Assembly: GCF_002117005.1 (NCBI RefSeq)
Contig: NZ_CP021023.1
Coordinates: 930,001-994,000, forward strand
Direction of reading: 5' to 3'
Source of the DNA: Sedimentisphaera salicampi
GTDB taxonomy: Bacteria > Planctomycetota > Phycisphaerae > Sedimentisphaerales > Sedimentisphaeraceae
DNA length: 64,000 nucleotides
Shown: positions 13,197-51,235 of the stretch, piece after piece
Layout of the letters: every line of letters starts with the position of its first letter
Position numbering within the stretch: the stretch's first letter is position 1
Program-made: the position numbers and the translations under genes
The notes under the pieces: generated by a model
The model's input: the letters and a program-made list of their open reading frames with translations, nothing else
Told to the model about the DNA's origin: nothing
Database searches by the model: none

Positions 13197-13198
13197 CA

Positions 13199-13287
13199 AA
13201 AAAAAAGGACCTGCAAATTTCTGCAAGTCCTTTTATATCAATAAGTAGCGGGAACAGGATTCGAACCTGTGACCTCCGGGTTATGAG
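13199..13287. repeat. Distal attachment-site copy (att) with a fragment of tRNA-fMet
   Basis: Identical over 89 bases to 19051-19139. Bases 13246-13287 equal the 3' 42 nucleotides of the tRNA, starting at the CAT anticodon loop. 13199-13236 equal the terminator hairpin. The tRNA fragment cannot form a tRNA. The poly-A edge has one more A than the other copy, and the group II intron begins just beyond it. Confidence 0.93.
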
Positions 13288-13402
13288 AGTTTTCACTGGT
13301 ATTTTCCCAAATCCTTGTCCTGCCATAACTTGCAGTAATAAAGCAACTTAGCTTTTTTTCTCTACCTATACATATACCACATTTTTACCATATTTGCAAG
13401 TT

Positions 13403-13426
13403 TTTACTGTACAGTTTACTGTACAA
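13403..13426. repeat. Tandem 12-bp repeat inside the left end, likely integrase arm-type sites
   Basis: TTTACTGTACAG followed directly by TTTACTGTACAA. The same pair recurs at 19011-19034 just inside the right att. Paired short direct repeats near both ends of an element suit arm-type binding sites of a tyrosine recombinase; this role is inference. Confidence 0.65.
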
Positions 13427-13482
13427 ATTTCATCTTCCAATATCAACTTGCCTTTTTATTCTTTTTTGAGTAGAATGCTGAT

Positions 13483-14425: not shown

Positions 14426-14427
14426 TC

Positions 14428-15761: not shown

Positions 15762-16278
15762 CCAAGATTCCTGAGTTTATCACTTCTGCAATTAGTAACT
15801 TTAACGCTCTTATATTAGAGCTATATCATAAATAATCAAGTATTTATGTTAAATATGTGGTATATGGGAAGAATTTCTATGCTGTATGAGGGCAAAAATA
15901 CTCTTTTTTTTATGGCGATTGACACGCAAAAGCTTGCCAAACAATCACAAATTGCTCGAAAAGGGTAAAGACGTGGTTTGTGAATAAAACTACCAGAGCT
16001 AATACGGCATCTGTTCCAGGAAATATTTTACTCTGCCCTTTTCGGGCATAAAGGCATAAAAAATCGGCAAGCTTTAAGTGTCAAGGGGAATTTTTCGAAG
16101 AAAAATAATAAAAAAAAGGAAGATTTTTGCAGAAGCTTATGCTTTAAGCCACTTCTAAAACCTGCTTGCTACCCGGACAAAAATAAATTTTTAAGTGTCC
16201 GGAAGATTTCACCTTTCATTGCTATGATTCCTTTTAGTTCATTAATCACATTTATCTTTATTAAATGAAAGGAAAAAT
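15762..16278. other. Gene-free, hairpin-rich region upstream of rep, possible replication origin
   Basis: About 500 bases with no credible gene. It contains an imperfect inverted repeat, with the TTGACAC...AGCTTGCC arm at 15919-15938 and its complement at 16066-16084. A TGCCC-TTTTC-GGGCA hairpin is at 16034-16048, and a CCGGACA/TGTCCGG hairpin with a 16-base loop is at 16173-16202. Clustered hairpins next to a rolling-circle initiator gene fit a double- or single-strand origin. I see no nick site that I could prove. Confidence 0.5.
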
Positions 16279-17370: not shown

Positions 17371-17509
17371 GAGACGAAATCGAATATATAAAGAACTTAA
17401 ATGCAAAGCAACTCTGAAAGCCCATATAAGCCAAGCATTTAACATAGATAAAAATTGTGTAATAAATTTAAAGAGAAGGGGGCCTAAAAATGAAAAATCA
17501 GTTCGTTGA
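17345..17509 (+). CDS. Small basic protein, 54 residues, overlapping rep and the excisionase gene
   Basis: ATG at 17345 is six bases after GGAGAG (17333-17338), an excellent ribosome site. The frame overlaps the rep stop by 26 bases and the next gene's start by 20, a compact chain typical of phages and plasmids. The product (MSKRQQIIKRRNRIYKELKC...) is very basic, with a possible helix-turn-helix 'LKAHISQAFNIDKNCVINLK'. I infer a small DNA-binding regulator. There is no family assignment. Confidence 0.6.
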   Translation: MSKRQQIIKRRNRIYKELKCKATLKAHISQAFNIDKNCVINLKRRGPKNEKSVR

Positions 17510-17702
17510 GAAATCCGTTTACATATCTCCTAAAGAGCTTGCTCATCGCTGGCAATGCTCACGTTCAAGCATTGACAGGATTACACGCAGAGCGGGGCTT
17601 ACAAGGTTCTGCCCGGGAGAAGGGAAAAACGGAACTATAAGATTTTTAAGAAAGGAGGTGGAAGCTTATGAAAAAGAAAGGCAGATTTGTTCAACTGTGT
17701 AA
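17490..17702 (+). CDS. Excisionase-like HTH DNA-binding protein
   Basis: A 70-residue protein with 'YISPKELAHRWQCSRSSIDRIT', a helix-turn-helix of the excisionase/MerR-like type found at residues 10-31. It is followed by a wing ('GTIRFLRKEVEAYEKER') ending in the helix seen in that family. AAGGGGG sits about seven bases before the ATG at 17490. Placed between rep and the convergent integrase, it probably directs excision or represses element genes. Which of these it does cannot be seen. Confidence 0.75.
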   Translation: MKNQFVEKSVYISPKELAHRWQCSRSSIDRITRRAGLTRFCPGEGKNGTIRFLRKEVEAYEKERQICSTV

Positions 17703-17727
17703 TCTGCCAATCAAAGAAAAAAGCTAA
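17668..17727 (+). CDS. Possible 19-residue micro-protein with a perfect ribosome binding site
   Basis: AAAGGAGGTG at 17651-17660 matches the anti-SD closely and lies seven bases before ATG 17668. The frame MKKKGRFVQLCNLPIKEKS ends at 17727. It overlaps the end of the excisionase-like gene by 35 bases. The SD quality is better than that of most genes here, which argues for translation. Function is unknown, and it could also be a remnant of a longer gene. Confidence 0.4.
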   Translation: MKKKGRFVQLCNLPIKEKS

Positions 17728-17732
17728 CCAGT

Positions 17733-17777
17733 ATAAGCCCCGGATTCTAGTGATGTGCAAGTCCTGCCGGGGCTTAT
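17733..17777. terminator. Hairpin between the convergent excisionase and integrase genes
   Basis: ATAAGCCCCGG (17733-17743) pairs perfectly with CCGGGGCTTAT (17767-17777) around a 23-base loop. The weak U-tract (TTATCTTTATCC) makes it a modest terminator. Its position between converging genes supports a bidirectional stop. Confidence 0.6.
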
Positions 17778-17779
17778 CT

Positions 17780-18955
17780 TTATCCAATCATAAAATGTTT
17801 AGGTAAATTAAATTCAACGCAATCAGACATCGCTTCCGGTATAAGAGCAGCATAATGCTTTCTACATATTTCTGGAGAATTGCCCATTAAGGTGGCAATT
17901 TTGTAAAGTGACTCACCTCTTTGCGCCAAGATAGAGCCAAAAGTATGACGAAAGTCTAAGCAAGTCCACTGCAATCCTAGTTTTTTATTTGCATTTGATA
18001 GGTCCCTGCTAAAATTATCAGGGTCGTAAAGGCTCAAACTCTTTGGACTCGGGAAATATAAGTTACCTTTATTTGGACTGGGAACATATTTAATTAGATA
18101 AGGTCTTAATGATGAACTAATTGGAATTGCCCTGTTGGTCTTTGTCTTAGGCTGCCAATATTCTCCATTAATTTCTTTTGCTCGAACTCGTATCATTCCG
18201 TATTTACCAGCCTTCAAGTCAACATCTTTTTTAGTTAGCCATAAGATCTCTTCTCTTCGCATACCAGTATATATTAGCATAGCAACCATCGTTTGAAGCT
18301 GCTTTTTAAAACTGAGCCCATTGATTTGCTCATCGATTTGTTTAAATGAAAGGTAACGAATTTGAGAAGCTCTTTCTATGTATCTCTCAACATTTGCCCC
18401 GGGGTTTATATCTCCCGGCATACGAACTCCCCCTTCTTTCATAGCCCAATTAAATAATCTAACGATAATTTGCCTGAAGTGGTTTGCAGTCTTAGGTGAT
18501 AATCCTCTGGTGCGAACTTGTGCGGATATGAATTCAGATATGCAGGCTGTTGTTATTTTCTCAAAACATGATGCTTCTATTATTTGAGAATACTCTTTCT
18601 TAGCTGCTCCTCGTTTTTTTGGTTTCTTCAAGGCTTTGTCGCTTGGTTTACGGCTTGTAATCTCAAGTTGAGGGCACACAACCCCAAATGTTTGTCGTAG
18701 ATAGTATATTTCAGTTTGCGCGCTCTTTGGGGTCTTTACGGTTCTAATGTGCTTAATGTATTTATCAAGAACTCTGCCTATCGGTGTATTAGTTGGAAGC
18801 GGGTTATCTTCCCCCATGAATAGAGATGTTTCGAACTTACGCAACTTCTCTTTAGCGAGTTGGTAATTTGTTGTTCTAAGGCTTACCCGTTTTTCTTTTT
18901 TTCCTACGTGATAAACCACATAATATGTTTTCCTTCTTTTGATTAAACCTGCCAT
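17780..18955 (-). CDS. Tyrosine recombinase (integrase) of the tRNA-fMet element
   Basis: Catalyses integration and excision at the 89-bp att repeat. It has 391 residues, with an N-terminal arm/SAM-like region and a C-terminal catalytic domain. Visible catalytic residues are the first Arg in 'LIYTGMRREEILWL', the second Arg/His in 'LDFRHTFGSIL', and the nucleophile Tyr in 'CRKHYAAL' (about residue 368). The usual His three residues before the second Arg is Leu here (LDFR instead of HxxR). I start at ATG 18955 after AGAGG. A longer open frame reaches into the att repeat, but its extra residues are not domain-like. The 3' end is 3 bases from the convergent hairpin. Confidence 0.92.
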   Translation of the reverse strand: MAGLIKRRKTYYVVYHVGKKEKRVSLRTTNYQLAKEKLRKFETSLFMGEDNPLPTNTPIGRVLDKYIKHIRTVKTPKSAQTEIYYLRQTFGVVCPQLEITSRKPSDKALKKPKKRGAAKKEYSQIIEASCFEKITTACISEFISAQVRTRGLSPKTANHFRQIIVRLFNWAMKEGGVRMPGDINPGANVERYIERASQIRYLSFKQIDEQINGLSFKKQLQTMVAMLIYTGMRREEILWLTKKDVDLKAGKYGMIRVRAKEINGEYWQPKTKTNRAIPISSSLRPYLIKYVPSPNKGNLYFPSPKSLSLYDPDNFSRDLSNANKKLGLQWTCLDFRHTFGSILAQRGESLYKIATLMGNSPEICRKHYAALIPEAMSDCVEFNLPKHFMIG

Positions 18956-19010
18956 TTTAATACCTCTTAAAATTAAAGTTAGTATTAGTTTGCAGATCCT
19001 TAGGCATTTT

Positions 19011-19034
19011 TTTACTGTACAATTTACTGTACAA
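19011..19034. repeat. Tandem 12-bp repeat inside the right end, likely integrase arm-type sites
   Basis: Two TTTACTGTACAA units in tandem, 17 bases inside the right att repeat and upstream of the integrase. They match the pair at 13403-13426 except for one base. Confidence 0.65.
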
Positions 19035-19050
19035 ATCGCTAATTTTAACC

Positions 19051-19172
<122 letters not shown>

Positions 19173-19386: not shown

Positions 19387-19420
19387 AAAAAAGCTCCCCC
19401 GAACCGGGAGAGCTTTTTTT
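19387..19420 (-). terminator. Terminator after the LamG gene at 19442
   Basis: AAAAAAGCTC-CCCC and GGGA-GAGCTTTTTTT pair around GAACC. U-tracts exist on both strands, so it can end transcription from the minus-strand LamG operon and anything from the plus side. Confidence 0.85.
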
Positions 19421-19441: not shown

Positions 19442-21610
19442 TTAGTCGAGCTGGGGATATAGATTAGACTCATTCCAGTCCAGAGCGAACATCGCCAAAT
19501 CAGCAAGATTCACCTTGCAGTCTCCGTTGAAGTCATACTTGAGGTCTTCGGAGTATGGGTCTGTGCAGAAATCGCCGCCCATAATTTCGTGATATTGCTG
19601 GGCGATTTGATCGTTAGTAAGGGCATAGTTGTACATCTTGATTTCATCGAACACACCAAGCCCCGGATTGCCGAGCTGACCGTTCGTTTCGCCTGTACAC
19701 ATAATATATACGCGCTGCTCGAATTTACTGCGCATAAAGTCATCGTTGGTCTGAACGAGAGATCCGTTTACATAAAGCCTGCCCGTCTGGTCTGCATCAT
19801 TGACAAACGCAACATGCATCCACTGGTCGGGAGTAATGTAGTGGTCTTCCGGTACTCCCCACTGAACGTAACCCGGAGTATTAGCGGTTAGCTGTCCATC
19901 GGGCTGGATATCGAAGAACCAGTTATTTTCTCCGCCATCGGGATCTGAGCTGCAAATCAGCCCTGCCAGGCCTCCGCTGGGATAAATATCTCCAGTCCAC
20001 TTGACCCAGAGCGAAACAGTGAGCTCATCAGTATAAGGAGCGGGGACTAACGGCTCGGTTGCCGCTGCTGCCAGAGGCTCGGGAACGGTATCAAAGCCCT
20101 GCCCTGTCTTTGCAGGGTCAACACCGTCAACCCACTGCTCAGGCAGAGGCGCAACGTTCGGATCAGCATTAAGCCCTTCGCCTGAAGCGTCTGTATAGTC
20201 TCCGTCGAGAGGCCAGTAGCCAATCATGCGCTTAACGCCGAGCATTGCAGAATCAGAATCCGCAGTGCCGTCTTGATTGCTCGCACGGCAGAAGTATTCG
20301 CCCTGATCATCTCTTTCGAGGTTAGCAACAGAAAGGCTTGTGGTGTAGCTGTCTCCATGCTGGGAAACACCAATGGTTATATCGGGGTCTGTATCATCAA
20401 CTATGGTTTCCGGATCTCCTGCCTTCACCCATTCTACAGATGCAGCAGTTTTGCTTGTAAAAGCGGCATTGAAAGTAACTTCTTCGCCGGTAAAATCTGC
20501 CTGATCTGCTGGCGAAGCTGTAATGGCCGGTATTGCGGGGAGAGCCTCAAAATGCCAGATTGGCCCTGCGATATTTTCTGCAGAGCCCTCTGCTGCATTG
20601 TTGATCTGCTCTTCCACCTTCCAGTATATCTCATCACCCAGTTCAAATGTAAAAGGCACCTGAACAGGGTCGCTGCCGGCAGGTACGAATGCGCTGAGCG
20701 CCTCGACGTTGTTGTTTGGATCAGCGGGGTCAAACGTAGAATAGGCAGTTACGAAATGCCCTGTTACATTGGGATTCGGGTTAGATGTGTTTCCGGGTTC
20801 GCCGGCAGTATCAAACTGAAGCGATGTAACAGCTACAGGGTCAACATTAACCTCTCCGTTTGCAGGCACGGGATTTCTCGGCCAAAGATCGGGATCTACA
20901 ACATCTTCGAATATCTGGCCTCTTAAAGGCGTTCCAGATACTGTCTCCATTGCAACAACATTTGCCTGATTTACAAGGTCTGGGGGGTCGTTGGAGTTAT
21001 TGAGCCCGCCGAAAACACCGTAATCTTCATCCGGACCCGGAACCCAGCCCAAAACACTCACGGTACGGTTGCCGCTCAGGTTTGTAACCTGCACGGAGCC
21101 AGTGATTGTTTCAGTGTAGAGCCGGCCGTTAATCATTGCTATAAGCTCGCCTGTACCTGAATTAAAAGAAACGAAGAGCTCTGTTTCAATGTTTGGGTAA
21201 ACAGGCCCGAGAGCCACTGCCACGCCGCCGTCGCCGGAGGCATCGGTATCGTTCAAACTCTCAACAACAGCATTCCCGCCGCCGCTTCCGTTTGCTCCCT
21301 TAGAGCCGAAAGTGAGCATACCATCGCAAATGAATATACCGGTTCCGTAGTTAGACCCGCCTACTTCTGTTACAATAACAGGGCCATCTGTTTTGGTTGT
21401 ATCCGCTTCTGTAGGGGTGAATTTAGCTGTCAGAGTGATAAGGCCGGAATCCACAATTCCCGTCATATCACTTGAGTTCTGCAGCTGACGTTCGGAATAG
21501 TCAACAATCGCATCAGAGTCGTCAAATTCAGGTACGATTTCACCTGCAAAACAAGCTGAGGCAACTGAGAGACAAACAATTAGTGTAAAAAACTTGTATA
21601 TTTTCATCAT
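19442..21610 (-). CDS. Secreted LamG/Ig-domain protein with C-terminal dockerin-like motif (paralogue 1)
   Basis: Large exported protein of 722 residues. The signal peptide starts at ATG 21610 (MMKIYKFFTLIVCLSVASACFAG), behind GGAG. The first 230 residues, beginning 'GEIVPEFDDSDAIVDY', are shared with the two paralogues at 21648 and 26871. An Ig-like domain follows (about 375-460: 'PADQADFTGEEVTF' to 'DQGEYFCRASNQDG'). Next comes a LamG jelly roll (about 465-680, with 'ELTVSLWVKWTG' and 'WMHVAFVNDADQTGRLYVNG'). The end, 'DFNGDCKVNLADLAMFALDW', resembles one dockerin half. Probably binds carbohydrate at the surface. Last gene of the cluster. Confidence 0.82.
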   Translation of the reverse strand: MMKIYKFFTLIVCLSVASACFAGEIVPEFDDSDAIVDYSERQLQNSSDMTGIVDSGLITLTAKFTPTEADTTKTDGPVIVTEVGGSNYGTGIFICDGMLTFGSKGANGSGGGNAVVESLNDTDASGDGGVAVALGPVYPNIETELFVSFNSGTGELIAMINGRLYTETITGSVQVTNLSGNRTVSVLGWVPGPDEDYGVFGGLNNSNDPPDLVNQANVVAMETVSGTPLRGQIFEDVVDPDLWPRNPVPANGEVNVDPVAVTSLQFDTAGEPGNTSNPNPNVTGHFVTAYSTFDPADPNNNVEALSAFVPAGSDPVQVPFTFELGDEIYWKVEEQINNAAEGSAENIAGPIWHFEALPAIPAITASPADQADFTGEEVTFNAAFTSKTAASVEWVKAGDPETIVDDTDPDITIGVSQHGDSYTTSLSVANLERDDQGEYFCRASNQDGTADSDSAMLGVKRMIGYWPLDGDYTDASGEGLNADPNVAPLPEQWVDGVDPAKTGQGFDTVPEPLAAAATEPLVPAPYTDELTVSLWVKWTGDIYPSGGLAGLICSSDPDGGENNWFFDIQPDGQLTANTPGYVQWGVPEDHYITPDQWMHVAFVNDADQTGRLYVNGSLVQTNDDFMRSKFEQRVYIMCTGETNGQLGNPGLGVFDEIKMYNYALTNDQIAQQYHEIMGGDFCTDPYSEDLKYDFNGDCKVNLADLAMFALDWNESNLYPQLD

Positions 21611-21647
21611 TTTATCTTCTCCATAAAATTTAATTAACACTTACCAA

Positions 21648-23792
21648 CTACTCTAATGAGCTCAGATACATCTTATCATTTAGCCAGTCGATAGACAGAG
21701 CAGCAAGGTCATCGAAATCAACAGTGCAGTCGCCGTCGAAATCGTATTTCAGGTTGTCTGCATTCGGCTCAACACAAATCTGCTCACCAGATACATCGTA
21801 GTACAGCCCTGCAATCTCTTCGGGGCTCATAGCATAGTTATAGATCCTTACATCATCGAAAACAGCTTCCAGCACGTTGTTCAGGTTTTCGCTGTCCTGC
21901 ACGTCTGATGCAAAGAATATCGGCTTGGACAGCTGATTGATGCTGAATCTGCCCGGATCGGTTATTTCATATTGCGAGCCGTTGACGTAAACCGCTGCCA
22001 CCTCATCTTCTGAAGCAGTAAATGCCAGATGAGTCCACTCATCCCTTTGTATCTGATAGAATGGATAGGGGCTGTAGCCCGGGGCATTTATCTGAATCCA
22101 GCCGTCTCTGTTGTCGATTTCGAGGAAGAAATTGTTATCACTGTCATCCTGTGAACATACAATCTGGCGATAGTTGAGAGTTGAGAAGCTGTCCGGCCCT
22201 GGCCAATTGAGCCATAGAGATACAGTAATCTCATTTGTATACTCAGCAACATTAAACGGAGCTGTCTCGCCTGCTGATTCACGGTTTCCAATGGTGCTGA
22301 TGGCCTGCCCTGTTTCAGCAGGTACCACGCCGTCAACCCACTGCTCCGGAACAGGGGTTCCATAAGGTGTTATATCATTGCCTTCGCCGGAATAATCAAG
22401 GTAATCCCCGTCGAACGGCCAATAAACAACCATACGCTTAACAGCCAGTGAGGCAGATTCAGAGTCTAAGCTTCCAAACTCATTCTCTGCTTTGCAGTAG
22501 TAGTAGCCTTGATCTGCAGCTTCTGGATTATCAAGATAGAGGGCTGAAGTGTATTGATCGCCGTCTTGAGTGAGCTCAATCGTTACATCCGGATCGGATG
22601 GGAGCAATTCGGTATCCGGATCGCCTTCTTTATACCAAGCAGAGCTTGCTGAGCTCTTGCTGGTGAAAGTGAATTCGAACATGGCCTGTTCATCATCAAA
22701 TACGGCCTCGTCTTCAGGCTGAATATATGCGGCAGGCTTTGGCGGAAGGGTTGCAAAGCCCCAGAAAGGACCTGTAACATTGCCTGCATCACCTTTAGGT
22801 GCACCGCTGATCTGCTCTTCTACTCTCCAGTAAATATCCTGTCCGAGATCAAGCTCGAAAGTTTCCGGAGAATTTACCGTTACAGAAATCGGGTCTGTTC
22901 CCGTAGGCACAAAGGTTTCATAAAGCTGCGGGAGGCTGAGATTCGGATCACTTCCAGTTCCCTCATAGAAAGTAACAAAGTGCCCAGTTACATCAGGGTT
23001 CTGCGAGCCGGCATTTTCAGGGTCTTCAGCTGTATTAAAGCTTACCTCAGAAATGACAGCAGGGTCAATATTTTCGGCATTAACTGCCGGAGAAGGTGTG
23101 TTGGCCATAACAGCAGGATTAACTGCCTGACTGAAAATCTGACCTCTCACAGGTGCGCCGGCTATGCCGGTAAACATCCATGCATTTGAGGCACTAAGAA
23201 GCGGGTTTGTGCCGCTGAGTCCGCCCGTCGAGCCTAAGCTGGTATCTCCGAGAAAGGTTACAGCCTGATTTCCGGTAAGGTTGGTAGAAGTCGGGGCGTT
23301 GTAGAGGTAATTGATCCTTCGAACGCCGTTGACAGAGCTGAAAATCATTCCAGTGGTGAGGTCTAAAGAGGCATACACTTTATTTTCCTGCCCCTCAAGA
23401 GCCTTGCCCATTTCCACAGAAGAAGATCCATCACTATTGTCAAGGTCGGTCAATTCTCTGTCTGGGCCATTTCCGCTAGTTCTGAGGGCGTAAACAATCT
23501 CGCCATTGCAGATATACAGGCCGCTTCCATACTTGCTCCCGCCTGTTTCTATGAGCAGAACAGGGCCTGTTTCTTCTGTTACGTCCAGTTCTGAAGGCGT
23601 AAATTTGGCGGCAAAGGTTATGGTACTTGCCGGATTTAAAGAAACTATATCACTGCCTGTCTCATCGTAGGCAGCAGTATAGTCAACAAGGGCAGTACTG
23701 TCATCAAACCAGGGGACTATTTCACCTGCCCATGCCCCTGCGGCAATAAGAAATACAAATAGAAGGATTAAGGTTTTAATTTTTTTCAACAT
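21648..23792 (-). CDS. Secreted LamG/Ig-domain protein with C-terminal dockerin-like motif (paralogue 2)
   Basis: The same order of parts as its downstream neighbour: signal peptide from ATG 23792 (MLKKIKTLILLFVFLIAAGAWA), shared N-terminal domain starting 'GEIVPWFDDSTALVDY', Ig-like domain with 'ADQGYYYCKAENEFG', LamG with 'EITVSLWLNWPG' and 'WTHLAFTASEDEVAAVYVNG', then 'DFDGDCTVDFDDLAALSIDW'. GGAGG lies eight bases before the ATG. An open frame continues upstream to 23894, but its residues are not signal-like. Clear tandem duplication with the gene at 19442 (37-base gap). Likely a surface or secreted glycan-binding protein; ligand unknown. Confidence 0.82.
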   Translation of the reverse strand: MLKKIKTLILLFVFLIAAGAWAGEIVPWFDDSTALVDYTAAYDETGSDIVSLNPASTITFAAKFTPSELDVTEETGPVLLIETGGSKYGSGLYICNGEIVYALRTSGNGPDRELTDLDNSDGSSSVEMGKALEGQENKVYASLDLTTGMIFSSVNGVRRINYLYNAPTSTNLTGNQAVTFLGDTSLGSTGGLSGTNPLLSASNAWMFTGIAGAPVRGQIFSQAVNPAVMANTPSPAVNAENIDPAVISEVSFNTAEDPENAGSQNPDVTGHFVTFYEGTGSDPNLSLPQLYETFVPTGTDPISVTVNSPETFELDLGQDIYWRVEEQISGAPKGDAGNVTGPFWGFATLPPKPAAYIQPEDEAVFDDEQAMFEFTFTSKSSASSAWYKEGDPDTELLPSDPDVTIELTQDGDQYTSALYLDNPEAADQGYYYCKAENEFGSLDSESASLAVKRMVVYWPFDGDYLDYSGEGNDITPYGTPVPEQWVDGVVPAETGQAISTIGNRESAGETAPFNVAEYTNEITVSLWLNWPGPDSFSTLNYRQIVCSQDDSDNNFFLEIDNRDGWIQINAPGYSPYPFYQIQRDEWTHLAFTASEDEVAAVYVNGSQYEITDPGRFSINQLSKPIFFASDVQDSENLNNVLEAVFDDVRIYNYAMSPEEIAGLYYDVSGEQICVEPNADNLKYDFDGDCTVDFDDLAALSIDWLNDKMYLSSLE

Positions 23793-23979
23793 TGGGAAAC
23801 CTCCGTAATAATAAAGATTAAAAAACTTGCACCACGCCTTTTTGGGCGTGATAAACCAACAGTAGGCTGAATCGAAATACATCATTTCAACCACACGGCA
23901 GATAAACTAATATTTCATACACATTCCTTTTTCTGATTTAATTTATAACACTCTAAATCTTAACAAAGTTTACAATTTT
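23793..23979. other. Spacer between sulfatase and LamG paralogue 2, with a small hairpin
   Basis: On the minus strand CACGCC-CAAAAA-GGCGTG (around 23850-23833) forms a hairpin followed a few bases later by TTTTTT. It may attenuate transcription between the sulfatases and the two downstream LamG genes. Confidence 0.45.
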
Positions 23980-25395
23980 TTATCTCTGATGGTCGTAAGC
24001 ATTAAGCTCAGTCTGAATGCCTCTGTCTCCCTGATCTTTCATCCATTCATCAAGCTTTCCTTTGAGCCTTTTGAACACCTCTTCATAGCCGGGCTCGTCA
24101 GCCAGATTATTGATATTTGCAGGGTCCTGCTTGATGTTGTAGAGCTCGAATTCTGGGCGGTGCTGATACTTATGCGTATATTCTTGCGCGTGCTCATCGC
24201 CGCTTGCGGCTAAATCAAGCATAGACTGAAATTCAGGGCTGGGGTTTTCTGTAACTACATTTTGGAACTCATTTTCAGGTATGAGATTCCAAATCAGCCT
24301 GTAGTTTTCATCCCTCACAGAACGTATCGGGTATGGCTGCTTGTTTTTGAGTATTCCTCTTGATGTATGGATGCCGAAGGTGTAGTCCTTGTGTTTATCT
24401 GTCTTGCCGGTGAGCAGGCCGAGCATACTTTTACCGTCGAGGATTTCCGGGGGCTTTCCGCCTGCCGCCTCAATGAAAGTGGGCGTTACGTCAACATACT
24501 CCACAATTGCATCACTCTTGCTTCCAGCTTCCACTTTCCCGGGCCAGCGGACAATCATAATCGAGCCGAGCCCGTCTTCATAGCATGTCCATTTGGCGAA
24601 AGGCAGCGCATTTCCCTGCTCTGAAACAACCATAACCATCGTATTATCGGAGAGATTATGCTTATCAAGCAGATCAAGAAGCTGACCTACCTGACTGTCG
24701 AAATAAGTAATCTCTGCGAGATACTTCGTCATAGATTCGCGCACGACGGGTGTATCGGGGATGTATGGACGAAGCTCAACATCATCAGCATCGTAGGCAG
24801 AAGGGTCTCCTTTGTTCCAAGGTGTGTGCGGCTCGTTTGAGCAGGCAAAGAGGCAGAAGGGTGTTTCTGTATTGCTGCATTCTGAGAACAGACTCTCAAC
24901 AGCTCCCATATCAGGGTTTTTGTTGCCGCTGTATTCAAACGGATATACTTCTTCCGGAGCTATATGTTTTTTACCGGAAAGTGCAACTCTATAGCCAAGC
25001 GGCTTAAGATAATGCACAATACTTTTAGTGCCTTCCTTTGCAACTGCATGATTTGGGTATGCCCCGCTCTTTACGGGATATAGGCCTGAATATATATTAT
25101 GCCTTGTGGGCGAACACATGGGTGCAGCCTGAAAACAGTTAGTGAATTTCATTGCTTCGGGAACAAGCTTATCGATATTCGGCGTATGAGCCTGTCCTCC
25201 GTAGCAGCCTATATCTCTGTAGGTACAGTCGTCTGCCATTATGAAAAGGAAATTCGGTTTTTTCCCGCCGGCATTACGTACACCTTTTTTCAACTGGAAA
25301 TTACTGTTTGCAAAAATAGACTCCGCAACACCGCTCGACTGAACAGCGGAAAATGCCGCAACGCCTGCTAATTTTATAAAATTCCTTCTTTCCAT
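23980..25395 (-). CDS. Secreted sulfatase
   Basis: Type I sulfatase of 471 residues. The Tat-like N-terminus is 'ERRNFIKLAGVAAFSA'. The metal strand 'PNFLFIMADDCTYRDIGCYG' is near residue 47, and the formylglycine motif is C94-S-P-T-R. It also has 'VSEQGNALPFAKWTCYEDG', whose pattern recalls heparan N-sulfatase-like members (family S1_8-like, tentative). Start ATG 25395 has AGGA seven bases upstream. It follows a paralogous sulfatase by 32 bases in the same operon as the ECF sigma and LamG genes, so it probably acts on the same sulfated glycan. Confidence 0.93.
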   Translation of the reverse strand: MERRNFIKLAGVAAFSAVQSSGVAESIFANSNFQLKKGVRNAGGKKPNFLFIMADDCTYRDIGCYGGQAHTPNIDKLVPEAMKFTNCFQAAPMCSPTRHNIYSGLYPVKSGAYPNHAVAKEGTKSIVHYLKPLGYRVALSGKKHIAPEEVYPFEYSGNKNPDMGAVESLFSECSNTETPFCLFACSNEPHTPWNKGDPSAYDADDVELRPYIPDTPVVRESMTKYLAEITYFDSQVGQLLDLLDKHNLSDNTMVMVVSEQGNALPFAKWTCYEDGLGSIMIVRWPGKVEAGSKSDAIVEYVDVTPTFIEAAGGKPPEILDGKSMLGLLTGKTDKHKDYTFGIHTSRGILKNKQPYPIRSVRDENYRLIWNLIPENEFQNVVTENPSPEFQSMLDLAASGDEHAQEYTHKYQHRPEFELYNIKQDPANINNLADEPGYEEVFKRLKGKLDEWMKDQGDRGIQTELNAYDHQR

Positions 25396-25427
25396 TTTCA
25401 ATTCCTGTTTAAAATATTGCTTCAAAT

Positions 25428-26849
25428 TCAGTATATATGATTCTGGTTTCTTGCGGCCTCAAGGGCCTCCATAGTATCAATAGGGGCTCCTGGGTCGTTT
25501 TCCTGAGCCATCCATTTATCAAGTCTGTCGCTTAACTTGTTTTTTATTTCGGAATAATCAGGGTTATCGGCGAGGTTGTTCATTTCGTATGGGTCTTCTG
25601 ATGTGTGGTAGAGCTGCTCTGCGGGCCTTCTTGTGAACCTCTCAACGAGCTTATACACATCTTCCTGATTGTAGGAGCTGGAAACCCACGAATGCCAGAA
25701 GTCCGCACCTCCCATCACGTGCTTTTCAATATAGAGCCTATCCGGGCAGAGATTGCGTATATATCTGTACTGCCCATCAAAGACTGTCCGGATAGGGTAT
25801 TGCGGGCCTTCGGGTACGTTATTGTGTATGCCGAACACGTAATCACGGTGTTTGTTTGTATTGCCTTTAATCACATCAAGAAAACTCTTTCCGTCGAATT
25901 CAAGCTCTTCAGGATTTCCACCTGCAAGCTCTATAATCGTGGGGAGGAAATCGCAGTATTGAACCATTGCCTCTGTCCGTTTATTCACCGGCGCAACTCC
26001 CGGCCAGCGGGCTATCAAGGCTGTATGCAGGCCGGTATCCCAATTCGTCCACTTATTCCCCGGAAACTTAGAGCCCTGCTCTGAAGAGAAGAGCACAAGG
26101 GTGTTATCCGCCTTTCCGGACTGCTCAAGGGCTTCTAAAATATCGCCAACCTGCGAATCCATATATGTTATTTCTGCAAGATACTTTGAAAAATTATCGC
26201 GCGTTTCCTGCGTATCTGCCATATTGGGAGGCAGTTTCAGCTGATCAGCGGGATACCTGCTCGCATCTCCCATTACCCACGGGGCGTGCGGCTCAACGAG
26301 ACATACAGAGAGATAGAACGGCGAAGAATCATCTTCCATATACCGCCTGATATACTGCGTATCGTGCGGCTGGGTGGGGTTTCGAACACATTTTTGATCA
26401 AACCCTTCAATGTAATCAAACGGGAAAGCAGATTTCGGTCGTATATGCCTCTTGCCTGTAAGCCCTGCACGATAGCCCAGTTCGGAGAGGTAATGCGGGG
26501 CGCTTTTAATATCGTTTCGGCATTTGGAATGATTCCAGCTTGCCCCGTTGCTTATTGGATGAAGCCCTGTCTGCAATTCTGAGCGGCAAGGCAGACACAT
26601 AGCCTCTGAGAGGTAGGCTTTGTTGAACACAAGCCCCTCAGATGCAAGCTGGTTTATGTTGGGGGTATAGGCATTCTCGCCGCCGTAAAGGGGAAGGTCT
26701 CTGAAGGTGCAGTCGTCGGCCATTATCAGAAGCACATTCGGGCGGGATGAATCTGACTCGTTTGAGCTGAAAATATCCGCTGAAGCATCCGAAAAAACCG
26801 AGGAGAATGCTGCAAAGCCTGCCAGTTTTATAAAATTTCTTCTCTTCAT
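25428..26849 (-). CDS. Secreted sulfatase with C-L-P-C-R active-site motif
   Basis: A sulfatase of 473 residues and a paralogue of the one at 23980. Residues 1-25 form a Tat-like signal ('KRRNFIKLAGFAAFSS'). 'PNVLLIMADDCTFRDLPLYG' holds the metal ligands. The formylglycine site is C85-L-P-C-R, which still satisfies C-x-P-x-R but carries a second Cys where Ser, Thr or Ala is common. Start ATG 26849 is eight bases after AGGG; an in-frame GTG nine bases upstream is less likely. It lies 21 bases from the LamG gene upstream of it. Confidence 0.92.
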   Translation of the reverse strand: MKRRNFIKLAGFAAFSSVFSDASADIFSSNESDSSRPNVLLIMADDCTFRDLPLYGGENAYTPNINQLASEGLVFNKAYLSEAMCLPCRSELQTGLHPISNGASWNHSKCRNDIKSAPHYLSELGYRAGLTGKRHIRPKSAFPFDYIEGFDQKCVRNPTQPHDTQYIRRYMEDDSSPFYLSVCLVEPHAPWVMGDASRYPADQLKLPPNMADTQETRDNFSKYLAEITYMDSQVGDILEALEQSGKADNTLVLFSSEQGSKFPGNKWTNWDTGLHTALIARWPGVAPVNKRTEAMVQYCDFLPTIIELAGGNPEELEFDGKSFLDVIKGNTNKHRDYVFGIHNNVPEGPQYPIRTVFDGQYRYIRNLCPDRLYIEKHVMGGADFWHSWVSSSYNQEDVYKLVERFTRRPAEQLYHTSEDPYEMNNLADNPDYSEIKNKLSDRLDKWMAQENDPGAPIDTMEALEAARNQNHIY

Positions 26850-26870
26850 TATATACACCCTGATTGGATC

Positions 26871-29537
26871 TTAATGCTTGAAGTTTTCCTGCCAGAAAAG
26901 GGCTATCTGATTAAAATCACCTATATTTATAACGCCGTCTGAAAGGGGGTCTTTGGGGCAAATCACAGGAGAAACCGGCTGCATTACGAGCTGCATAGCT
27001 CCGCCGTAAAGGAACACAACTTCCTCATGACTGAGGCTTCTGCTGTAAATCCTGAATTCATCGATTTTGGCCTTCAGGAATTCGCCGTCTCCTGAGGGAG
27101 AAGAACCTATAAAAGACCGGCCTGCATTTGAATAATCTTCAGAAGTGAGGGAGGTTTCACCCTCGGCTGTTAAAACACCGTCTTTATAGATTTTCGTGAA
27201 ACCTCCAGTTTTGTTTGTGATGCACAGATGATGCCAGCCGGCCTGGAAATCGGGATAAACAGCAAATTCATATTCGGCTTCCTTTTCAAAATCTGCACTC
27301 GAAGCTGCTATTAGAAAATCAATCGAATTTCTCGTTTCCCATGCATCCGGCTGATCCAAAAACCAGAAACTGATTGTGAAGCCTTGGTCTGCGGCATCGA
27401 AAATTCCGCTCGGGAGCTCAACGGCAAACGTACCGTCCAGCTCGAGACAGCCCGCCTCAACTCCTGAAGGATTCCAAGCAGTATCCGGAGCATCTTTCAG
27501 CACATCAGCGTGGTAAGAATTTGCAGAATTATCGTAGGCCACTGCCCCGCTGGTTTCGTCGAATGGATAATAAGCCTCAAGCCCCTCCGGCTCTTCAGCA
27601 GCGGCAAAAACCCAATGGCTCTGTGCAAGCCAGTTCTCCGCCAAGATCTGCAAGTCTTGAAGGTTAATCAGGCAATCGTTATTGATATCGGCAGGCTGAC
27701 TGCTGCCCTCAAGGCAGCGTTTGATATCCAGAGCGATAGAATCAATTGAAATCACTCCGCTGGCCGTCTGTGATGGAGAATTTTCAAGGCCGAATTCCAA
27801 ATAAGCAACTTCGGAAATATTCACGCCCTCGTTCGAAAATTCTTCGAGCTTAATCCGCACACGAGACGGCGCTGCATAGATCAAATCTTCCTGCAAATAT
27901 GCCTTTTTGCTCACTCCGCCTGAATCTTCCAACTGAACGTAGAAATCTGCGGGCTGATTTTCCGGCTCTCCTCTGAAATAAAATTCTAAAATCTGGGTCC
28001 CGCAAGCAGTGAAGTCTTTAGGCTGGTTAAATGACCTGCCAACTGCCGATTTTTCAGTTCCGTTTTGATTTTGGTAGCTCAGTTTCAAAGATTTTCCATA
28101 AGCCGGCAGCCCCAGCTCGATTAAGGAGCCTGTGGAATTAGTTGTTCCGTCCTGCCAATCGGCGAGCAGCTGGGCATCTGAGGAGTATTGATCGAAATCT
28201 TCAATGATTCCTGGATTCTCGTATGAGAGCTCCAGCACCTCGCTGCTTCCTTCCAGATCCGGATGGGAGGGGGAATAGCAATCCACGCGGCAGTAGTAGT
28301 TCTCCCCGAAGAACATCCCCTGCGTATTAGGCTGCCAAGAAGTTTGGTTTATCCCTGAAACGGATGATACAATCTGCTCGAAACTGGAATCTGAAGCTAT
28401 AAGAACATCGTACCTCAGATCAGGATACAGCTCGACCAGCAGATCGGCCGGCCTTTCCCAGCTGAGAGAAATAAACGGAAGGTCCCCGCTTGCAGTAAGC
28501 GGGAAATCTCTGAGGGGGTCGGTATTTACTGCCCACACCTGACTTTCCCACGGGCTTTCTGCGTAGCCGGAATTTATCGCTTCCACTTTCCAATAGTATG
28601 TGGTTTGTTCATCAAGGTAAATCTGGTTTTCAGTGAGCCCAAGCTCAAAACGCCCCTGCAAATCAGGGCCGGAAATCTGCGGCTGATGCAGCAGCGTACC
28701 GAAGTGGTTCGCTGAATCGGCCTGCGTAACATTCTCCAGAGAAGTGCCGAGATAAACGTTATAACTGTTCGCATACATCCCGCCTGCCCAAGAAAAACTT
28801 GACAGTGAAACTCTGGCATCAGATCCGTTTTCCGGGCTCGGACTGCACGGCTCAGGCGGACTGACAGCCTGATCAAAAATCTGGCCTCTCACAGGCGTGC
28901 CCTGCAGCCCCTGAAAGATCTGCCGGTTATCCATATCGAGAAACGGCTCTGTGTAGTTGTCGTTTAAGCCGCCCATATGAATGGAGAGCTGATCTTTGCC
29001 AAGAAACGCCGATGTTCTGTTGCCGGTAAGGTCTGTTGACTGCGGGGCATTGATGAGGTATTTAATCTGCCTCTCACCGTTCACAGAAGAAAAGACCATA
29101 CCGGTTTGAAGATTCAAGGACACATACGCCTTATTCTCCTGTCCGGCCTCTAAATCGCCCAGGACCACTGAAACCGCCCCGTTGATATTATCCAGATCCA
29201 TCAGCTCACGAACCGGAGCATCGCCGCCTGTTCTAACGGCATACACCAGCTCACCGCCGCAGATATAAAGCCCGCTGCCGTGCAGTACACCGCCAACCTC
29301 AATGATAACTACCGGGCCGGTCTGTTCGTCCAAATCGGCCCGAGAAGGGGTGAATTTTGCGGCGAATGTTATTTCGCTTTCAGGATTCAAGGCAGGAACA
29401 TCGCCTGAAGAACCGTCTTTGGGAGCAGTATAATCCACAAGGGCCTCTGAATCATCGAGCCAAGGGACAATCTCTCCCGACCTTGCAGGAGCAACTGCAA
29501 AACTGATAACAGCTAAAAAATAAACAATTTTTATCAT
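26871..29537 (-). CDS. Secreted LamG protein with internal and C-terminal dockerin-like motifs (paralogue 3)
   Basis: An 888-residue exported protein. The signal peptide is MIKIVYFLAVISFAVAPARS. The first 230 residues are homologous to paralogues 1 and 2 ('GEIVPWLDDSEALVDYTA'). A fibronectin-III-like region follows (about 235-445, 'SPENGSDARVSLSSFSWAGG'). Next is a beta-rich module starting 'GIIEDFDQYSSDAQLLADW'. An internal dockerin-like motif 'DINNDCLINLQDLQILAENW' is near residue 620, then LamG (about 655-835), then a last motif 'DGVINIGDFNQIALFW'. It is directly downstream of the FecR-like gene. The domain mix points to glycan binding; no catalytic motif is seen. Confidence 0.8.
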   Translation of the reverse strand: MIKIVYFLAVISFAVAPARSGEIVPWLDDSEALVDYTAPKDGSSGDVPALNPESEITFAAKFTPSRADLDEQTGPVVIIEVGGVLHGSGLYICGGELVYAVRTGGDAPVRELMDLDNINGAVSVVLGDLEAGQENKAYVSLNLQTGMVFSSVNGERQIKYLINAPQSTDLTGNRTSAFLGKDQLSIHMGGLNDNYTEPFLDMDNRQIFQGLQGTPVRGQIFDQAVSPPEPCSPSPENGSDARVSLSSFSWAGGMYANSYNVYLGTSLENVTQADSANHFGTLLHQPQISGPDLQGRFELGLTENQIYLDEQTTYYWKVEAINSGYAESPWESQVWAVNTDPLRDFPLTASGDLPFISLSWERPADLLVELYPDLRYDVLIASDSSFEQIVSSVSGINQTSWQPNTQGMFFGENYYCRVDCYSPSHPDLEGSSEVLELSYENPGIIEDFDQYSSDAQLLADWQDGTTNSTGSLIELGLPAYGKSLKLSYQNQNGTEKSAVGRSFNQPKDFTACGTQILEFYFRGEPENQPADFYVQLEDSGGVSKKAYLQEDLIYAAPSRVRIKLEEFSNEGVNISEVAYLEFGLENSPSQTASGVISIDSIALDIKRCLEGSSQPADINNDCLINLQDLQILAENWLAQSHWVFAAAEEPEGLEAYYPFDETSGAVAYDNSANSYHADVLKDAPDTAWNPSGVEAGCLELDGTFAVELPSGIFDAADQGFTISFWFLDQPDAWETRNSIDFLIAASSADFEKEAEYEFAVYPDFQAGWHHLCITNKTGGFTKIYKDGVLTAEGETSLTSEDYSNAGRSFIGSSPSGDGEFLKAKIDEFRIYSRSLSHEEVVFLYGGAMQLVMQPVSPVICPKDPLSDGVINIGDFNQIALFWQENFKH

Positions 29538-29570
29538 AGCTTCATCTCTCTTATAAAAAAAAACGCGAAT

Positions 29571-31286
29571 TTATTTAAGGGAATCTAAGTGCAGCTTGGG
29601 GTTTACAAAAAGAGGCATTGCAAGGCCTGCATTTCCTGCTCCCTTACCCATTGGCACAAATGAACAAATTGTGAGGAAACGGTCTTTCGGATTTAATCTG
29701 ATATCAAAATCCACAGGTTTATCTACCGGTGTTTGATTATTAACCTCAAATCGAAGCTTACCATCTACGAGAACCTGCATATCGCAAACAATTGACTTAA
29801 AACCAGACTTATCCTGCCATTTCTCGGGTTCAGCGAATACAGCATCGTTAAAAATGCTGTCTGAAAGGCCAAATTTAGCAGTGAATCTGGACATACGAAA
29901 ATTCGGCACAATTCCCCTAATCTTTTCGAGATCGAAGGTAACGCCCTGCTCTGGGTGGATATATATAGCAGATGTTTCAGGATATCTTTGCTTGACGCCC
30001 TGAAGGGTCATAACATGCGGAAGAACCTTACCTGACCGCGGATGATAAGCACCATTGAGCACACCAACTCTATACCTTACATTAGTATCAGGCAGCCCGC
30101 TGAAAGTATGACCTTGGCTTGAAACCTTAACCGGCCCTCGGCCTCCATCAGGCATAAATACCCCATCAATAAAGGGCAGAGAATCTACAGCAAGGTAGTC
30201 TTCATACTCAGTTGTAACGGACTCAAATTCCTTGATATCATCTGAATATTCCCCTTTGATGGTAACTATACCGCTTTTGTATTTCCCTGTCCCAAGGCCG
30301 TTTCCCCCGCCTACCATATCGGCAAGGTCTAAAGTTTCCTGGCCTCTCCATACTGCCTTGAATTTAGAGTTAATGCTCCGGACAAACTCCTCGGGGTCGG
30401 GGTTTATCTCTACAGCATCGGAGTTTGCGTTTGAAATACCGAGAGCTTTACCCTTTGTAAGCTCCCTTTTTGCCTTTTTGAGCCAAGAATTTCCGCTTAT
30501 AAATGCGGCCTTTCCTTTTATCATATGGGCTTCAGTCCAGCCCTTTTTGTCTTTATATACCCCGAACTCCGTACCGAGATCAATAAGACGCATATTATCG
30601 GTATGAACGGTAAACCCGATACCCTGATCGCCTACCTTTGCATAAATCCGGCCGTAATCGAGCTGAAGGTCGCTTTGTTTGCTTAAATCAAACTCTGCAG
30701 GCGCTTCTACTGTTATCAAAACATCGTTAGGCGTCTTCAGTTCGATATAGCCTTCAGAAAGCGATACCTTGTTATTTGCCCAAATTGAATCGCCGCTAGA
30801 AAAAGAAACGGAAGAATCTGAAAACTGGGCGTTTAATGCGTCCTCAACTACAGCAGCTCTAATAGACTGATTAGTCCTGTCTGCAAAGGTAAGGATCAAT
30901 ACGATAGCCAGCATAGCAGCAGCGGAGAGTACAAATGCGATCACTGAGGACTTGCTGTACTGCCTTTTTGGGATATCATAGTGAACGTCTTCTATAAGGC
31001 AGCCCTGCTTTTCTTTCTCCTGCCTGCATTTTCTAATAGCAGGGGCACGTTTTTCTGCCTCAATGATTTTCTCTGCAAGCTCATCATCTATTTTTGGTAT
31101 CGAGGAAATATTTATCTCTTTGAGAGTACTGTAAACATTGACATACTTTTTATACAGAGCTCGGGCCTCAGGGCTTTCTCTTAGCGTATCCTGAACCTCT
31201 TCAAATTCATCTCTGCCTGCCCAGCCTTCCAGAAGCTTTAAAACCTTAAGGCCGAACTGTTTTTTCTCATATTTAGAATTAAACAT
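29571..31286 (-). CDS. FecR-domain membrane protein, likely anti-sigma or signal transducer
   Basis: A 571-residue single-pass protein. The cytoplasmic N-terminus (1-112) looks like an anti-sigma helical region ('KVLKLLEGWAGRDEFEEVQD'). A transmembrane helix lies at about 113-134. The FecR beta domain at about 165-275 contains 'LSEGYIELKTPNDVLITVEAPAEF' and 'IDLGTEFGVYKDKKG'. A C-terminal lectin-like region resembling NPCBM/LamG modules runs from 'LPFIDGVFMPDGGRG' onward. Its ATG follows the sigma gene's TAA directly, so the two are co-translated. By analogy with FecR systems it senses an extracellular glycan and controls the adjacent ECF sigma factor. That role is inferred. Confidence 0.82.
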   Translation of the reverse strand: MFNSKYEKKQFGLKVLKLLEGWAGRDEFEEVQDTLRESPEARALYKKYVNVYSTLKEINISSIPKIDDELAEKIIEAEKRAPAIRKCRQEKEKQGCLIEDVHYDIPKRQYSKSSVIAFVLSAAAMLAIVLILTFADRTNQSIRAAVVEDALNAQFSDSSVSFSSGDSIWANNKVSLSEGYIELKTPNDVLITVEAPAEFDLSKQSDLQLDYGRIYAKVGDQGIGFTVHTDNMRLIDLGTEFGVYKDKKGWTEAHMIKGKAAFISGNSWLKKAKRELTKGKALGISNANSDAVEINPDPEEFVRSINSKFKAVWRGQETLDLADMVGGGNGLGTGKYKSGIVTIKGEYSDDIKEFESVTTEYEDYLAVDSLPFIDGVFMPDGGRGPVKVSSQGHTFSGLPDTNVRYRVGVLNGAYHPRSGKVLPHVMTLQGVKQRYPETSAIYIHPEQGVTFDLEKIRGIVPNFRMSRFTAKFGLSDSIFNDAVFAEPEKWQDKSGFKSIVCDMQVLVDGKLRFEVNNQTPVDKPVDFDIRLNPKDRFLTICSFVPMGKGAGNAGLAMPLFVNPKLHLDSLK

Positions 31287-31799
31287 TTACATCTTCCTCT
31301 CTATACAGCTCAGCAAAACAAGATGTATGTTGTTCAGCCTTCGGTAAATCGTATGAATGCTTTTTCCATAAAACGACGCTATTTTCTTTACTGTCCATCC
31401 TTTTTGGTATCTCATTTCTATTAATTGTGCAAAACCATACTGAAGCTGATCTATGCATTCTTTAAGTATTCCATTTATTCGTTTTAATTCAGGGCTGTCC
31501 TGCTCGCCGCTGAGCAGCTCCAATATATCATCATCAAAAACCAGTTTCGATTTGCGGCTTTTTCTTATAAACTGCAGAGCCTTGTATTTCGCTGTTACGC
31601 AGGCCCAGGCAGTGAAGCTGGAGTCTCTCTCGAATTTGTCGAATTTCTCCCAAAGCGAGGTAACCGTATCCTGATAGATATCCTCTGCATCAGAGTAGTT
31701 CGGCACAATTGAGAGGATGTACCTGAATACGAGCCTCTGGTTTTGGGTAACCAGATTCAAGAATAATTTCGTATCAGAGTCTTCTGTTTTTCGTTTCAT
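31287..31799 (-). CDS. ECF RNA polymerase sigma factor
   Basis: A sigma-70-family ECF factor of 170 residues. Region 2 contains 'DAEDIYQDTVTSLWEKF' and 'FTAWACVTAKYKALQFIRKSRK'. Region 4 contains 'GWTVKKIASFYGKSIHTIYRRLNNI', the -35-binding HTH. There is no extra domain. It is the first gene of the cluster running down to 19442 and abuts a FecR-like gene, the usual sigma/anti-sigma pair order. It likely activates the LamG and sulfatase genes, possibly its own operon. SD AGGGG is upstream of the ATG at 31799. The short-insert 'RKSRKSKL' form is common in planctomycetes and verrucomicrobia. Confidence 0.92.
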   Translation of the reverse strand: MKRKTEDSDTKLFLNLVTQNQRLVFRYILSIVPNYSDAEDIYQDTVTSLWEKFDKFERDSSFTAWACVTAKYKALQFIRKSRKSKLVFDDDILELLSGEQDSPELKRINGILKECIDQLQYGFAQLIEMRYQKGWTVKKIASFYGKSIHTIYRRLNNIHLVLLSCIERKM

Positions 31800-32027: not shown

Positions 32028-32636
32028 ATGAACGAAACAATCAGAGACAAAATGCTCTTCGGGGCATCAGCGTACAGCCCTCCATACCAGCGCACCCGAG
32101 AGATGACTCTCGACGAGATGCTTCTGGATAATCGAATTCTGTTTATGATAGGCGAAATCAATTACAGAATGTCAACAGAAGTGATTATGAAGCTTCTTCA
32201 CCTCGAGAACAACAAGCCCGGGGCGGAGATAAGTATGTACATAAATTCTCCGGGAGGCAGCGTTGACGACACGATGGCGATTTACGATACGATGCGTTTT
32301 ATCAGCTCGCCTGTTTCCACATACTGCATCGGAAGGGCTCAGTCCGGCGGGGCTATAATCCTCGCCTCAGGAGCTGAAGGAAAACGCTTTGCACTGCCGC
32401 ATGCAAAGGTGATGATTCATCAGCCATGGGGCGGAGTTACAGGGCAGGCAGAAGATGTGCATATTCAGGCCGAGGAGATTATAAGAAGCAAAAATATAAT
32501 CAACGGAATCCTCGCAAAGCATACGAACAAAACCGTTGAGCAGCTTCAGGAAGACACCGAAAGAGATAAGTATATGACGGCAGAAGAAGCAAAGAAATAC
32601 GGCATAATAGACGACGTGCTTGAAACGCCGGAATGA
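32028..32636 (+). CDS. clpP: ATP-dependent Clp protease proteolytic subunit, copy 1
   Basis: Serine protease chamber subunit working with ClpX/ClpA-type unfoldases. It has 202 residues, a normal length. The catalytic Ser is S106 in 'GRAQSGGA', the His is H131 in 'MIHQPWGG', and the Asp is in 'DTERDKYMTAEEA'. 'YINSPGGSV' is the conserved substrate-cleft strand. AAGAAGG lies seven bases before the ATG. It is followed 48 bases later by a second, divergent clpP, suggesting a hetero-oligomeric protease or specialised forms. It lies divergently from the ECF sigma operon. Confidence 0.95.
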   Translation: MNETIRDKMLFGASAYSPPYQRTREMTLDEMLLDNRILFMIGEINYRMSTEVIMKLLHLENNKPGAEISMYINSPGGSVDDTMAIYDTMRFISSPVSTYCIGRAQSGGAIILASGAEGKRFALPHAKVMIHQPWGGVTGQAEDVHIQAEEIIRSKNIINGILAKHTNKTVEQLQEDTERDKYMTAEEAKKYGIIDDVLETPE

Positions 32637-32684
32637 CAATCAGCTATTTTGATTAGATTGAAAATCAATTAATAAGGAATAATA

Positions 32685-33290
32685 ATGGTATCGAATCAGT
32701 TAATACCGATGGTAATAGAAAAAGAAGGACGCGGCGAGAGAGCATACGATATCTATTCGCGTCTTTTGAAAGACCGTATCGTCTTTCTCGGCGGAGGAGT
32801 TGACGACAATATAGCGAATCTTGTAATAGCTCAGCTTCTTTTTTTGAGCAACGAAGACAGCGAAGCAGACATCCACTTCTACATAAACTCACCCGGCGGT
32901 TCGGTAAGCGCGGGGCTTGCGGTTTATGATACAATGCGGTTTCTCCGCTGCGATGTGGCCACATACTGCATCGGTCAGGCGGCAAGCATGGGGGCGGTTC
33001 TCTTTGCCGGCGGAACAGAGGGCAAGAGATGTATGCTCCCAAACAGCAGGATACTGCTTCATCAGCCGCTTATTTCCGGTGTAATGCAGGGGCCTGCTAC
33101 TGATCTGGAGATAGAGGCGAAGGAGATTATCCGCCTCCGCAAGCGGCTTTACAACATCCTCTCATTCCACACAGGCAAAAGCGAGGAGCAGGTTGTAAAA
33201 GACTGCGACCGCAACCTCTGGCTCGAAGCGCAGGAATCAATTGATTACGGGCTTGCGGATAAGATTCTTGAAAAAGAGCCTGCAAAATAA
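32685..33290 (+). CDS. clpP: ATP-dependent Clp protease proteolytic subunit, copy 2
   Basis: Second ClpP paralogue, 201 residues. Catalytic S101 is in 'GQAASMGA', H126 in 'LLHQPLISG', and Asp in '[14 protein letters not shown]'. The head region differs from copy 1 (starts [22 protein letters not shown], the classic ClpP N-terminus), so copy 2 is the more canonical of the two. AAGGA is present before the ATG. The gene ends at a strong terminator (33315). Tandem clpP genes are known in several phyla, and the subunits can form mixed heptamers. Confidence 0.95.
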
Positions 33291-47168: not shown

Positions 47169-47186
47169 ACATTAACCTCTAATTTT

Positions 47187-49622: not shown

Positions 49623-49641
49623 TTTCACCCTTTCATAAAAA

Positions 49642-51105: not shown

Positions 51106-51235
51106 CATCTACTCCTGTCATAAAGAGATATTCCGTGTCTTATTTAAGAGAAATCCTTTTGGGAAAATGATAGATGATTATCGACCTGATTTCAAAGCCA
51201 TTTTAAGTATTTAAATTAACCAATTTGCGCACAAA

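Follow-up and report, generated by a model that had tools for sequence, protein, structure and literature searches.

A run of seven co-directional genes in Sedimentisphaera salicampi is read here, with modest confidence, as a unit that encodes secreted lectins and sulfatases directed at a sulfated glycan and is switched by a sigma/anti-sigma pair. The parts of the locus are familiar; their combination, and the N-terminal domain (N-domain) shared by its three LamG proteins, are uncatalogued. Planctomycetes play a major part in the degradation of sulfated glycans from algae. No functional characterisation exists for any of their carbohydrate gene clusters (PMC11131199).

Organization of the locus

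The window is the whole 64,000-nucleotide stretch of DNA analysed, positions 930001-994000 of the single-contig 3.19 Mb genome. Seven ORFs are open on its minus strand from 31799 down to 19442, at the coordinates of the initial annotation. Their order is sigma factor, FecR-like membrane protein, LamG3, sulfatase 1, sulfatase 2, LamG2 and LamG1. The features are, in window coordinates:

31287..31799, minus strand: ECF-type sigma factor, 170 aa, TIGR02989 (Rhodopirellula/Verrucomicrobium family), 131.1 bits
29571..31286, minus strand: FecR-like anti-sigma candidate, 571 aa, PF04773 26.9 bits (threshold 24)
26871..29537, minus strand: LamG3, Laminin_G_3 57.3 bits
28854..29477, minus strand: N-domain of LamG3 (alignment A2)
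25428..26858, minus strand: sulfatase 1, PF00884 130 bits, Tat-like signal, CLPCR formylglycine motif, SEQG for SD(H/N)G
23980..25425, minus strand: sulfatase 2, PF00884 119 bits, Tat-like signal, CSPTR motif, SEQG
23830..23853, minus strand: leader hairpin 5' of LamG2, 9 pairs, then CAAGTTTTTT; also terminator-like
21648..23894 (likely start ATG 23792), minus strand: LamG2, Laminin_G_3 63.4 bits, I-set 31 bits
23112..23726, minus strand: N-domain of LamG2, the copy modelled (AlphaFold2 pTM 0.67, mean pLDDT 57)
19442..21640, minus strand: LamG1, Laminin_G_3 67.7 bits, Ig_3 36.6 bits, layout as LamG2
20888..21544, minus strand: N-domain of LamG1 (alignment A2)
19394..19410, minus strand: intrinsic-terminator-like site just 3' of LamG1, CTCCCGGTTCGGGGGAG then CTTTTTT

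ORFs and profile matches agree on the co-directional run proposed in the initial annotation, with the ECF sigma/FecR pair at its head. The sigma factor scores above the curated TIGR02989 cut-off (124.55 bits), and LamG1, LamG2 and LamG3 all score above the gathering score of Laminin_G_3 (PF13385; 27.6). The first five genes are spaced by 0-33 nt. A gap of about 190 nt separates sulfatase 2 from LamG2, given a LamG2 start at 23792; this ATG, with a CGGAGG Shine-Dalgarno sequence 5' of it, is most likely the start, and not 23894.

Pfam scans of the seven proteins and their immediate neighbours found no SusC, SusD or transporter, as had been noted from the letters alone, and no TonB-dependent transducer with a signalling plug. 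No glycoside hydrolase or lyase was found by Pfam in the seven proteins. Lacking glycoside hydrolase, lyase and transporter, the locus alone cannot utilise a polysaccharide.

The upstream neighbour of the sigma gene is clpP; a tandem pair of ClpP genes (32028-33290), divergent from the sigma gene, is kept in the sister species. Downstream of LamG1 stand a tRNA-Met and a phage-type integrase. They belong to a gene group at 11387-19172, adjoining the locus, which also holds a group II intron reverse transcriptase, a partial SNF2 helicase and a REP/G2P-like protein, and which has the appearance of a mobile island. Other genes stand downstream of the sister-species locus. A second carbohydrate cluster of the window (44819-51108) encodes a class II aldolase, an FGGY kinase, an alpha-L-arabinofuranosidase and a sulfatase; no sigma/FecR pair accompanies it.

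Sigma factor and FecR-like protein

The FecR-like protein consists of a cytoplasmic N-terminal part, one transmembrane segment (about 113-135), the FecR domain (201-259) and a C-terminal region related to NPCBM, a putative carbohydrate-binding module. The window protein gives no direct match to NPCBM (PF08305); a profile of the C-termini of its paralogues matches it at 1.7e-29. Among 17 aligned FecR homologues (alignment A3), 13 carry NPCBM at the C-terminus, and nine of the genome's 11 NPCBM matches lie in FecR proteins of sigma/FecR pairs. The structure model of the C-terminal region (pLDDT 36) is too poor for a fold search.

Thirteen TIGR02989-type genes were scored in the genome. Domain search places a FecR gene directly behind 12 of them, and the thirteenth (L062) also has a FecR homologue behind it. 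The twelve further sigma/FecR loci of the genome (L054-L065) have varied cargo, namely tandem LamG/Ig/dockerin-like genes, GH43-type genes, pilin-like proteins and PEP-CTERM proteins. The FecR of L063 has a short C-terminus without NPCBM. K-mer and dyad counts upstream of the sigma genes, made to find a shared promoter motif, gave only A/T tracts; comparison between the two species gave conserved blocks with no assignable -35/-10.

The cargo was assessed by rotation of positions around the genome, within 13 kb downstream of the TIGR02989 sigma genes. Proteins built on a chassis of Fn3-like, Ig, LamG_3 and dockerin-like parts are present in 37 strong copies, 11 of which fall within this distance against a mean of 1.9 expected (p 0.002, an indicative value, since both the 13 kb limit and the 37-copy cut were set with the loci already in view). 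Four of 65 sulfatases do so against a mean of 3.4 expected, and sulfatases as a general cargo of sigma/FecR loci are thus unsupported (p 0.42). Lectin-type proteins are therefore the usual cargo of the switch, with sulfatases as a peculiarity of the window locus and of its counterpart in another genus, described below.

LamG proteins and the N-domain

LamG1 and LamG2 have one full-length layout, consisting of N-domain, Fn3-like domain, Ig domain, LamG_3 and a dockerin-like C-terminus. LamG3 has a signal peptide, N-domain, long middle part, dockerin-like repeat, LamG_3 and a second dockerin-like repeat; it has only the N-domain and LamG_3 in common with the other two, on a different scaffold. 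A match to the fimbrial protein TafC covered the LamG part only, lay far below the cut-off and was rejected.

The N-domain follows the signal peptide. The initial annotation had proposed it as a shared, unrecognised domain of 230 residues; the shared domain stands, at a length of about 205-220 aa. The LamG1 and LamG3 copies are 38% and 61% identical, respectively, to that of LamG2. No Pfam model matches the N-domain, the concanavalin-A-like and CBM40 families included, and no PDB entry matches it by sequence. An AlphaFold2 model built from eight sequences is a beta jelly roll of moderate confidence (mean pLDDT 57). By Foldseek and VIA-align, the solved folds closest to it are those of CBM40 modules, of neurexin/laminin LamG domains and of pentraxins; Foldseek gives E 1.7e-4 at probability 1.00, and the VIA-align Z reaches 10.9 for CBM40, with similar Z for LamG and pentraxin. 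The likeness to CBM40 and to LamG/pentraxin lectins lies in the predicted fold, with no detectable sequence relation. Judging from this model, the N-domain is probably a divergent concanavalin-A-like, lectin-type domain and not an enzyme. A known enzyme family with a different role, the outcome named beforehand as contrary to the initial reading, found no support in Pfam, PDB sequence or fold comparisons.

The genome holds twelve N-domain copies at six places, and the sister species also holds twelve. Beyond the genus, the domain was found in 9 of 397 genomes of a class-wide sample and in 4 of 392 of a phylum-wide sample. It is absent from a complete genome of the same family (G018) and from a congener of carriers (G042), so that its distribution is patchy.

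The LamG2-LamG1 cassette

LamG2 and LamG1 form a two-gene cassette that occurs five times per genome in this and the sister species. At four of these five places the cassette is by itself, with neither a sigma/FecR-NPCBM pair nor a sulfatase alongside. In a tree of the N-terminal heads, LamG2-type and LamG1-type sequences form two clades with sister-species orthologues at five loci, which makes it most likely that the two genes of the cassette were copied together before the species diverged. The exception is the second gene of the 2901 kb pair, which lies outside the clades on a long branch. The head of LamG3 nests among the LamG2-type heads, the rest of the protein being different, a placement that points to head exchange between operon and cassette.

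In the sister species, two LamG2-type genes from different loci (L043, L044) have nearly identical heads, which suggests gene conversion between cassettes. Transposase-like genes adjoin both.

A hairpin at a similar place is present in nine of ten leaders of the first cassette gene in the two species, with differing stem letters. Besides the window, these leaders are found at L009, L010, L012, L013 and L042-L046, with the hairpin lying some 40-60 nt ahead of the start codon and a conserved CGGAG(G) Shine-Dalgarno sequence 3' of it. The stems are only moderately stronger than those of other leaders. The hairpin is a possible mRNA-stabilising leader.

Sulfatases

Both sulfatases belong to the S1 type, with PF00884 and an intact C/S-x-P-x-R formylglycine motif. 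The nearest solved structure to sulfatase 1 is S1_8A (E 7.7e-43); those nearest to sulfatase 2 are S1_8A (E 7.8e-36) and human SGSH (4.5e-35). Among the S1_8 enzymes are sulfamidases that act on heparan-type sugars (PMC6388578, PMC10154612). The window enzymes resemble the S1_8 enzymes human SGSH and Pedobacter heparinus sulfamidase in their best PDB matches, the SGSH_C domain and the C-x-P-x-R motif. They differ in being distant (at most 150 bits to the nearest) and in having S/T-E-Q-G in place of SD(H/N)G. Because of the large distance, a substrate cannot be named from the S1_8 likeness.

S/T-E-Q-G is present in both sulfatases and in 51-52% identical enzymes of the other genus (L049 13405-14826); at that position, which we take to be the metal site, the majority of the sulfatases in these loci carry S-D-(H/N)-G. 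Since E-Q replaces the usual D-N/H there, the activity of both enzymes is uncertain. In the sister species the frame of sulfatase 1 (L042 11822-13244) is split by a single-base insertion, seen in one genome, and the gene is either a pseudogene there or the site of a sequencing error.

Conservation in related genomes

Two species are listed in the genus Sedimentisphaera (PMC6388578), and the sister species (G063) is the one other genome of the genus compared. It has all seven genes in the same order at 76-96% identity, with 96% for the sigma factor and 91% for LamG1.

Two genomes of one genus in another family of the order (G049, G081) have a rearranged locus. It runs from sigma factor and FecR through a type-II-pilin-like protein, a sulfatase, a full-length N-domain/Ig/LamG protein, an N-domain protein, a further secreted protein, a PEP-CTERM N-domain protein and a sulfatase to GH43, a sulfatase 51-52% identical to sulfatase 1, and GH2. 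In a genome of a third family (G397), the N-domain adjoins a sulfatase on one contig and lies near a sigma/FecR pair on another. The association of the N-domain and sulfatases with sigma/FecR is therefore no accident of one genome.

Proposed function and alternatives

For sugar binding, sensing, proteolysis, self-regulation, co-expression and substrate, we infer the following sequence of events. The FecR-like protein would hold the TIGR02989 sigma factor at the membrane, and its periplasmic part, with the NPCBM-type end, would sense a glycan or a fragment of it directly, without a TonB receptor. Glycan binding, probably followed by proteolysis of FecR, would free the sigma factor. The freed sigma factor would then activate the operon that encodes it (sigma, FecR, LamG3, sulfatase 1 and sulfatase 2) and possibly also the attached LamG2-LamG1 cassette. 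The LamG proteins, with two predicted concanavalin-A-like domains each (N-domain and LamG_3), would hold the sulfated glycan at the cell surface; in LamG1 and LamG2 an Fn3/Ig stalk would carry these lectin domains, and the protein would end in a dockerin-like tail. The two Tat-exported sulfatases would strip sulfate from the held glycan. Backbone cleavage and uptake would have to be encoded elsewhere.

This reading as one unit is supported by the tight spacing of the first five genes, the gene order of the sister species, the rearranged locus of the other family, the FecR pairing, the NPCBM of the FecR proteins, the LamG enrichment, the N-domain fold and the intact formylglycine motifs. The unenriched sulfatases, the lack of a shared promoter motif, the low pLDDT of the N-domain and FecR C-terminal models, the E-Q metal site and the frameshift in the sister-species sulfatase 1 count against it.

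The main rival, less probable though substantial, is that two units are neighbours by chance. One would be an operon of five genes, from the sigma factor to sulfatase 2; the other would be the LamG2-LamG1 cassette, expressed by itself with a 5' leader of its own, and its products would be surface or adhesin proteins made constitutively, with no relation to what the sulfatases do. The stand-alone copies at four sites, the gap of about 190 nt and the terminator-like hairpin in it mean that the cassette may not belong to the operon; the two clades are also as expected from duplication as a unit. Against chance neighbourhood, the counterpart in the other family has a single full-length N-domain-Ig-LamG protein inside its sigma/FecR/sulfatase run, and the LamG3 head, closest to LamG2-type heads, implies that operon and cassette exchanged parts. 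Gap, hairpin and stand-alone copies favour two units as far as transcription is concerned, which is compatible with a shared purpose.

It is unlikely that the sigma/FecR pair answers cell-envelope or attachment cues of sessile life, with LamG, Ig and dockerin-like proteins building surface or matrix and the sulfatases acting on the cell's own sulfated exopolysaccharide and not on food: most sigma/FecR loci do carry LamG-type proteins and few enzymes, and sulfatases are unenriched, but the counterpart in the other family has GH43, GH2 and three sulfatases, locus L054 of the same genome has a GH43 gene, and NPCBM modules elsewhere typically belong to enzymes that act on glycans.

The initial annotation had likened the locus to a polysaccharide utilisation locus (PUL). 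This likeness is partly supported, by the sigma/FecR head, the order kept in the sister species, the independent rearranged locus of the other family and an N-domain that is unrecognised by sequence and lectin-like in its predicted fold. A single PUL of seven genes is not supported, given the self-standing cassettes, the unenriched sulfatases and the missing glycoside hydrolase, lyase and transporter.

Comparison with known systems

Sus-like PULs of Bacteroidota, including those switched by ECF sigma/FecR, likewise have a sigma/anti-sigma pair beside secreted glycan-binding-type proteins and sulfatases. The window locus differs in having no SusC/SusD, TonB receptor, glycoside hydrolase or lyase, and in a FecR with an NPCBM-like domain of its own. 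As in FecI/FecR signalling of E. coli, an ECF sigma gene is followed directly by a gene for a single-pass FecR protein; here there is no FecA-type transducer, the C-terminal domain is NPCBM-like and the sigma factor is of the TIGR02989 type. Clusters of co-localised regulators and carbohydrate-active genes are known, and the order Sedimentisphaerales has been highlighted as rich in them; in contrast to these, the window locus has sulfatases without glycoside hydrolase or polysaccharide lyase and is marked by lectin-type proteins. No FecR-NPCBM fusions or FecR/LamG loci in planctomycetes were found in the open papers searched, which is weak evidence of novelty.

Biological significance

The locus probably helps the cell to grip and trim sulfated sugars. 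The N-domain represents a protein family that has not been catalogued and that was, in the genomes compared, almost confined to one order. A FecR protein with a carbohydrate-binding-like end would explain how insoluble glycans are sensed without a TonB receptor beside the switch, and a FecR-NPCBM switch would give direct predictions of which sigma factor answers which glycan. More tentatively, the genome may hold about 13 self-contained glycan switches of sigma factor and FecR, mostly with an NPCBM sensor, several of which would control two-lectin display proteins of their own, built on the Fn3/Ig/LamG/dockerin-like chassis with exchangeable N-terminal heads. If so, this repertoire would match the sensing of glycans to their capture at the surface in a planctomycete manner that needs no TonB, and the window locus would be the version of such a switch that also carries sulfatases.
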